From: Balneolaceae bacterium
GTDB lineage: Bacteria; Bacteroidota; Rhodothermia; Balneolales; Balneolaceae
Assembly (NCBI GenBank): GCA_009711805.1
Contig: VEMX01000049.1
Span: forward strand, 1 to 62,318
DNA: 62,318 nucleotides
Direction: 5' to 3'
Shown: in pieces, positions 5,030-6,082 of the stretch
How the letters are laid out: every line of letters begins with the position of its first letter
How positions within the stretch are numbered: the first letter of the stretch is position 1
Notes under the pieces: generated by a model
What the model saw: the letters and a program-made list of their open reading frames with translations, nothing else
What the model was told of the DNA's origin: nothing
Database searches by the model: none
Translations under genes and position numbers: made by a program

Positions 5030-5250
5030 TTAAACAACCTCCAAGCGTCTGAAAGACCTTGGAGCGTTGGTGAGTTCACCCCTCAATAACGTTGTGGGTT
5101 GTTTATTCTTCAATAGTATTCTGAGCTTATCCCACAATCCTAACGTTCAATTAAACCCCAAACAATTACCCGCTACGCTTGAAGGTCCTGCGGACGCTTC
5201 AAGGTAGCTGAGTTTGGTTTGTTTCATTAAAACTCATCGTCATCTAAAAA
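5030..5250. repeat. Left REP-pair (BIME-like) element next to the RAYT gene
   Basis: Contains two REP-like hairpins in inverted orientation. The first is CCAAG(C)GTCT-GAA-AGACCTTGG near 5040-5061. The second is CTTGAAGGTCC-TGC-GGAC(G)CTTCAAG near 5176-5203. Each has a one-base bulge at the same place, and the second is the reverse complement of the first with compensating changes. The element runs into the last codons of the adjacent transposase gene. A similar element lies at 5917-6082. Between the two left hairpins is an extra inverted pair TTGTGGG/CCCACAA. Confidence 0.85.
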
Positions 5251-5859
5251 ACCTCGTACTCCCCTCATATTTGCTGCTACAAAATTATCTATCCCCCCAA
5301 AAAGTTCTAATACCTTAGCTCTTTCAATAAAAGTAGCACTGTTATTAGATAGTAGGCTCCCATACGAAGAAAATGGATAGCTTTGGAAATCTTTAGTCAA
5401 ACTATGGTGTACAGGGTTTCTATGGATATACACTACCAAATTAAGCAAGTATTCCTCAGATTCGATGGGCTTTCTCTTAAAATTTCCGCCAAATAATGAT
5501 CCACTTCTTCTGTACTTACTATTAATATATTTTGTGTAGCTGTTTATCAAATGTCCTACCTGGTGAGAAGCTGAATAAAGTTTAAAGTTTTCATAAACTA
5601 ATTCATGAAAAGATTTGGGAGGAAAATTTGATTTCAAATATCCAAAATACGATTTCTGTTCTTTTTCATTTCTAATCCGAATTAGAAAATGAACATGATT
5701 TCCCAAAAGGCAATATGAAAACGTCTCCGCAACCGGATATAAATAATAAAAATACTTCTCAAGAAAGGTTTTATAATCGTCCTCTGACCAAAAAACCTGC
5801 CCTTTATTAATACCTTTGTGAAAAAGATGGTAATAGGTATTCTGTTGAAGTTCTCTCAT
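5227..5859 (-). CDS. REP-associated tyrosine transposase (RAYT)
   Basis: A 210-residue Y1-type HUH single-strand transposase of the IS200-like/RAYT family. The HUH motif is seen as NHVHFLIRI (His55 and His57). The likely catalytic Tyr is Tyr108 in SYTKYIN, followed by the family pattern KYRRSGSLF and later YIHRNPVHH. Such enzymes cleave and join DNA at REP hairpins. Consistent with that role, the gene sits between two copies of a paired REP-like element. The frame is intact with an ATG start and appears functional. Unlike IS200/IS605 elements there is no TnpB. Its own 3' end is part of the flanking repeat. Confidence 0.9.
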   Translation of the reverse strand: MRELQQNTYYHLFHKGINKGQVFWSEDDYKTFLEKYFYYLYPVAETFSYCLLGNHVHFLIRIRNEKEQKSYFGYLKSNFPPKSFHELVYENFKLYSASHQVGHLINSYTKYINSKYRRSGSLFGGNFKRKPIESEEYLLNLVVYIHRNPVHHSLTKDFQSYPFSSYGSLLSNNSATFIERAKVLELFGGIDNFVAANMRGVRGFLDDDEF

Positions 5860-5916
5860 ACCATGATGCTTTTAAAATTCTATAAAAAAAAGAAGCTCCA
5901 GATAAAAATTCGAACA

Positions 5917-6082
5917 AAACCTCCAAGCGTCTGAAAGACCTTGGAGCGTTGTGGATTCATTCCTAAGATCATCCATTACTTCCCCCAAACAATTATTCCG
6001 CTACGCTTGAAGGTCCTGCGGACGCTTCAAGGTTGCTGACTTTGGTTTGTTTCATTGAAACTCATCGTCATCTAAAAAACCT
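5917..6082. repeat. Right REP-pair element including a copy of the RAYT 3' end
   Basis: A direct repeat of the left flank: the same two bulged hairpins (near 5928-5950 and 6005-6033) followed by tttggtttgtttcattg and a copy of the final codons of the transposase gene (reverse-strand reading GFLDDDEF). The homology ends after aaaaaacct. The inter-hairpin spacer is about 60 bases shorter than in the left copy. Confidence 0.85.

Follow-up and report, generated by a model that had tools for sequence, protein, structure and literature searches.

Among the described associations between transposases and repetitive extragenic palindromes, the closest precedent for the locus reported here is that of Nunvar et al. 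2010, in which the 3′ end of a rayt gene, together with the sequence running from its stop codon to the REP, was found integrated into the adjacent BIME in four cases (PMC2817692, Additional file 4), and which was read as the BIME-forming mechanism acting on rayt genes too (PMC2817692). Overlap of REP or TIR sequences with the 3′ ends of such genes has also been described (Di Nocera et al. 2013, PMC3733652). Two further systems provide points of reference: the E. coli REPtron (TnpA-REP/yafM with its Y and Z2 REPs), where the bulge in the hairpin is important for recognition (PMC8266576), and TnpA-REP subclass 2.6, which is found mostly in Bacteroidetes (Quentin et al. 2018, PMC6006769).

Here we analyze a RAYT locus in a 62,318-nt stretch of DNA (the window) from the 4.08-Mb genome of a Balneolaceae bacterium. 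As in the cases of Nunvar et al. 2010 (PMC2817692), the rayt 3′ end, the stop-to-REP segment and the downstream REP are duplicated beside the gene; those cases, however, concern proteobacterial RAYTs and GT(A/G)G REPs, whereas the gene here encodes a Bacteroidetes-type RAYT and its REPs are without a GTAG foot. Capture of a rayt end beside REPs is already published, and the present case adds an instance from another RAYT lineage.

Results and Discussion

Architecture of the Locus

The locus is a REPtron, that is, a RAYT gene with its own REP/inverted-REP pairs: on each side, the gene is flanked by a hairpin A read on the plus strand and a hairpin B read on the minus strand (Table 1). The A hairpins form a direct repeat with 100% identity (5036-5069 vs. 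5918-5951), as do hairpin B and the adjoining gene end with 96% identity (5170-5254 vs. 5998-6082), and the similarity on the B side extends, at 95% over 100 bp and E 2.1e-38, from CCCCAAACAATTA onward (5156-5254 vs. 5983-6082). The preliminary description had spoken of two direct copies of one element, which is true of the hairpins and the B side but not of the A-B spacers, about 105 nt on the left vs. 51 nt on the right and largely different in sequence; given these unequal spacers, the arrangement is not a simple duplication of one block.

Table 1. Features of the RAYT locus (window coordinates)
Feature	Position	Strand	Basis and remarks
REP hairpin A1	5036..5068	+	3′ side of RAYT gene; DNA fold -11.5 kcal/mol, z -4.6; matches template
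Left A-B spacer, about 105 nt	5069..5173	.	Sequence; unlike right spacer
REP hairpin B1	5174..5206	-	3′ side of RAYT gene, inverted relative to A; matches template; DNA fold -12.4 kcal/mol (+ strand), -13.3 (- strand)
Source of copied tail (RAYT stop codon and last eight codons)	5227..5254	-	Repeat and tail-string searches
RAYT (TnpA-REP-like) gene, 210 aa	5227..5859	-	NHVH (HUH), YIHRNP catalytic-Tyr and SS motifs
REP hairpin A2	5918..5950	+	5′ side of RAYT gene; identical to A1 (repeat search, fold)
Right A-B spacer, 51 nt	5951..6001	.	Segment ATTCCTAAGATCATCCATTACTTCCCCCAAACA recurs at C15:71972-72008
REP hairpin B2	6002..6034	-	One lower-stem base pair lost; -9.9 kcal/mol
28-nt relic of RAYT 3′ end	6055..6082	-	Stop triplet changed from TAA to CAA; folA stop codon 18 nt beyond its end

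A on the plus strand and B on the minus strand represent a single hairpin type with a common 33-nt template. Each hairpin carries two single-base C bulges, one per arm, rather than the lone one-base bulge first described. The compensating stem changes noted at the same time are borne out: A and B differ at 4 of the 14 template base pairs, with every change compensated on both sides. This A-versus-B comparison within the window is unbiased, while the percentage of paired positions across the wider list of template matches is biased, the listed sequences having been selected for pairing. The template, AACCTNNNNNAGCGTCCGNAGGWCCTNNNNNAGCGTT, recurs with variations across the RAYT family and is devoid of the 5′ GT[AG]G foot of canonical REPs. 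Since the hairpins contain CGTC we also considered the CGTC-type REPs, in which CGTC forms an unpaired terminal motif and the stem measures 8-9 bp (PMC3733652), and dropped the assignment as the hairpins here do not match that description.

The encoded protein combines NHVH and YIHRNP, i.e., the HUH motif and the single catalytic tyrosine within YIxxNP that characterize RAYT/TnpA-REP proteins. Among profiles, NCBIfam NF047646 REP_Tyr_transpos matches it best (E 7e-11, with 42.2 bits against a curated cutoff of 80), Pfam Y1_Tnp scores only 14.1 bits and stays under its cutoff, and a contig search for relatives returned only distant ones from other phyla at about 30% identity. The AlphaFold model (mean pLDDT 70, pTM 0.71, from a five-sequence alignment) has as its top PDB match 4ER8 (E 1.5e-4), a structure of E. 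coli RAYT with a bound REP hairpin, which ranks ahead of IS200/IS605 transposases; judged by this best match, the protein is predicted to adopt the RAYT fold.

The likeness to the E. coli REPtron thus comprises the predicted fold and the bulged stems of inverted-pair REPs, and is offset by an identity of 14% over the structural match, by the GTAG foot not being found here and by the nature of the stem irregularities (an AA-GC mismatch in E. coli vs. two single-C bulges). TnpA-REP subclass 2.6 shares the NH[LIV]H, YIHxNP and SS motifs as well as atypical flanking secondary structures without GT[AG]G (PMC6006769), but differs, in a comparison made by motif only, at two positions (YIHRNP vs. YIH[QN]NP, and FG at the WQ position). 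In its motifs and atypical REPs the locus therefore appears to resemble subclass 2.6, these two motif positions apart.

A Second Copy of the Gene End

The preliminary description had also claimed that the right element carries a duplicate of the last eight or so RAYT codons (GFLDDDEF), and this is what we find: the copied coding part amounts to 28 nt, comprising the stop triplet, the last eight codons and one further nucleotide. Searched with up to three mismatches throughout the 4.08-Mb genome, the tail string matches only at 5233 and 6061 and the reversed string, used as a control, nowhere (0 matches), so that chance is excluded.

The right copy has since deteriorated. Its stop triplet reads CAA instead of TAA in the sense direction, which shows it to be noncoding, and one base pair of hairpin B2 is gone (GGTAGC to GGTTGC), with a predicted stability of -9.9 vs. 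-12.4 kcal/mol for its left counterpart. The single other B copy in the genome, at C15:72003-72056, can arbitrate at two B-side positions and, taken as an outgroup, assigns the GGTTGC change to the right copy alone and a change from GAC to GAG to the left one alone; with one private change each, both B-side copies have mutated since their separation. The right copy looks like the scar that a local duplication left at the RAYT/BIME locus, and this scar is decaying.

Beyond the relic lies folA, and it could be asked whether the right block is retained for the sake of that gene, for instance as a 3′-end stabilizer or as a terminator using the T-run of the tail. The block starts only 18 nt past the folA stop codon, and REPs are often located downstream of coding regions (PMC3733652); a terminator-like site, however, was not found on either strand between 4900 and 6200, and hairpin B2 is weakened, so we hold such a function to be highly unlikely.

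REP Units Elsewhere in the Genome

Outside the locus, the lone B copy at C15 stands without a tail and without a neighboring A, and is followed by a piece of the right-element spacer. REPs of the A/B type thus number two pairs, one to either side of the gene, and this single B, in place of the high copy number of canonical REPs, and searches of the 4.08-Mb genome recovered no dispersed REP copy with the tail. These counts bear on the two origins that had been put forward for the right element, namely a scar of a lost second transposase copy or a mobile unit that includes the 3′ tail of the gene and allows the enzyme to recognize and spread its own gene end. A scar fits. For the mobile unit one may cite that the right copy has its start within the coding sequence and a sharp end at 6082, but dispersed tail-bearing copies are absent, the sole other B copy has no tail, and the hairpin and tail of the right copy are decaying; the genome-wide search proposed for this very purpose has gone against it.

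The right spacer and the C15 segment also contain a stretch that, read on the sense strand, resembles the 3′ end of a second RAYT gene (EVMDDL-stop). We rejected this reading as the A-B spacer encloses the segment, the left spacer too contains part of it (CCCCAAACAATTA), and no RAYT found in the analysis has that ending.

The genome holds several other elements of related interest. An approximately 170-bp element with terminal inverted repeats (ACSCGTTTACCGGTTRGA) is present in about 37 copies (L038-L044, L144-L173; e.g., G000:C4:27763-27933, C6:51220-51390 and C58:6750-6920), shows apparent target duplications of 7-9 bp such as TAACCATTA and TAGCTTCTA and, in the copies read, encloses an inverted REP hairpin pair of the same bulged template, amounting to a MITE that carries a REP pair. 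A second, distant RAYT gene (L035, G000:C5:106700-108300), with an open frame of 217 codons, has one REP-like palindrome adjoining the gene and one within its own reading frame (G000:C5:107585-107609), the latter a placement described for TnpA-REP genes of subclass 2.4. On the same contig, at about 101 kb and 115 kb, lie CRISPR-like repeats (GTTTCAATCCTTGTTCTAATGGATTATGTATTCCGAC; L036 and L037), both adjoined by REP-like palindromes. A third RAYT (L045, G000:C61:13800-15600), more divergent and apparently frameshifted, is flanked by several long tandem palindromic units (CTGACGGCTGGACTTGCCC...).

REP Units in Related Loci

For the boundaries of the REP units, the gene end and 250 nt of downstream flank of each RAYT locus were searched for repeats within that locus. 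Sixteen family loci with upstream direct repeats at E <= 1e-5 and three further loci with repeats were available; in all 19, the repeated unit starts past the stop codon, at +4 to +33 nt (earliest match per locus), and in none is the coding tail part of it. Thirteen relatives were further searched with their own RAYT gene ends and REP, with at most 23 scored candidates per genome; setting aside the genes themselves, none of the about 150 matches listed has the coding tail in a REP unit. Two apparent exceptions were discarded: G062:C54:198-276 is a RAYT gene truncated where its contig starts, and G056:C288:1055-1105 the end of another RAYT gene. Matches at G021:C11 and G062:C15 extend just into the stop triplet or 2 nt past it. 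Among the matches listed and the 19 loci, the window's right copy is the only tail-bearing REP found. With the unit edge in relatives lying beyond the stop codon, a mobile unit that includes the tail becomes very improbable.

In the relatives, direct copies of the REP pair surround the RAYT genes and in some cases form regular tandem arrays. In one relative (L105, G065:C58:22500-26580), the gene lies within a REP-pair array of 134-bp period that extends on both gene sides and would lend itself to work on how arrays grow. The family matches showed no two RAYT genes adjacent in tandem. As the genus is represented by a single genome, no close relative offers an empty site for comparison.

Origin of the Tail-Bearing Copy

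The most economical route to the tail block, to which we give an even chance, is unequal recombination between REP pairs followed by deletion. A local duplication copied a block reaching from hairpin B into the gene's 3′ end across to the other side of the gene. On this account, the directly repeated REP pairs flanking the gene would recombine unequally and yield a tandem gene duplication, the unequal exchange joining the A2 spacer to the B-plus-tail block, and a later deletion would take the second gene save for its last 28 nt, halting just before folA. The presence of the tail only beside the gene counts for this account, as do the direct REP-pair copies around RAYT genes of the family, which are substrates for unequal exchange, and the regular tandem arrays found there (the 134-bp period of L105). 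It further accounts for the contrast between the B side and tail, which match the left copy, and the A2-side spacer, which does not: an A2 with a different spacer next to a B and tail 95% identical to the left ones is what is expected if the exchange point lay in or near B. Against recombination and deletion count that no remnant of a second gene survives past the 28 nt, that the family matches are devoid of an adjacent tandem RAYT pair, and that a one-step capture by RAYT-primed copying would give an identical picture.

Such a capture during BIME formation, with a nick near REP B and no complete second gene ever having existed, is an appreciable possibility that we put forward tentatively. 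Copying or strand transfer would take the 3′ end of the gene along with the REP, as proposed in the four published cases, where rayt 3′ ends lie within adjacent BIMEs and a RAYT-driven process has been argued (Nunvar et al. 2010, PMC2817692). The E. coli TnpA-REP cuts at sites 5′ and 3′ of the REP (PMC8266576), and tandem BIME arrays are common in the RAYT family considered here. The duplicated segment itself, 5983-6082 vs. 5156-5254 at 95%, has the composition of the published captures, i.e., gene end, stop-to-REP sequence and REP. The published tails, however, are located between the REPs of a BIME, whereas the tail in the window stands at the outer edge of a single REP pair with folA, and not a REP, coming next; a diagnostic cleavage dinucleotide was not identified at the 6082 junction; and no further instance appeared in the 19 family or order loci or in the about 150 matches listed, so that tail capture, if real, is rare here.

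A more general proposition, that a Bacteroidetes-type RAYT acting on bulged, GTAG-less REPs is able to cut, or to copy, into the coding end of its own gene, we consider doubtful at present. If true, tail-bearing REP units would be occasional direct products of the RAYT and not scars of ordinary recombination. As a single case, the locus leaves the picture of RAYTs unchanged; it adds one example of a duplication catching the end of the transposase gene next to its REPs, from outside the Proteobacteria and from a RAYT subclass that has been little studied, and intermediate states in sister strains could tell whether ordinary recombination or the transposase extends REP arrays.
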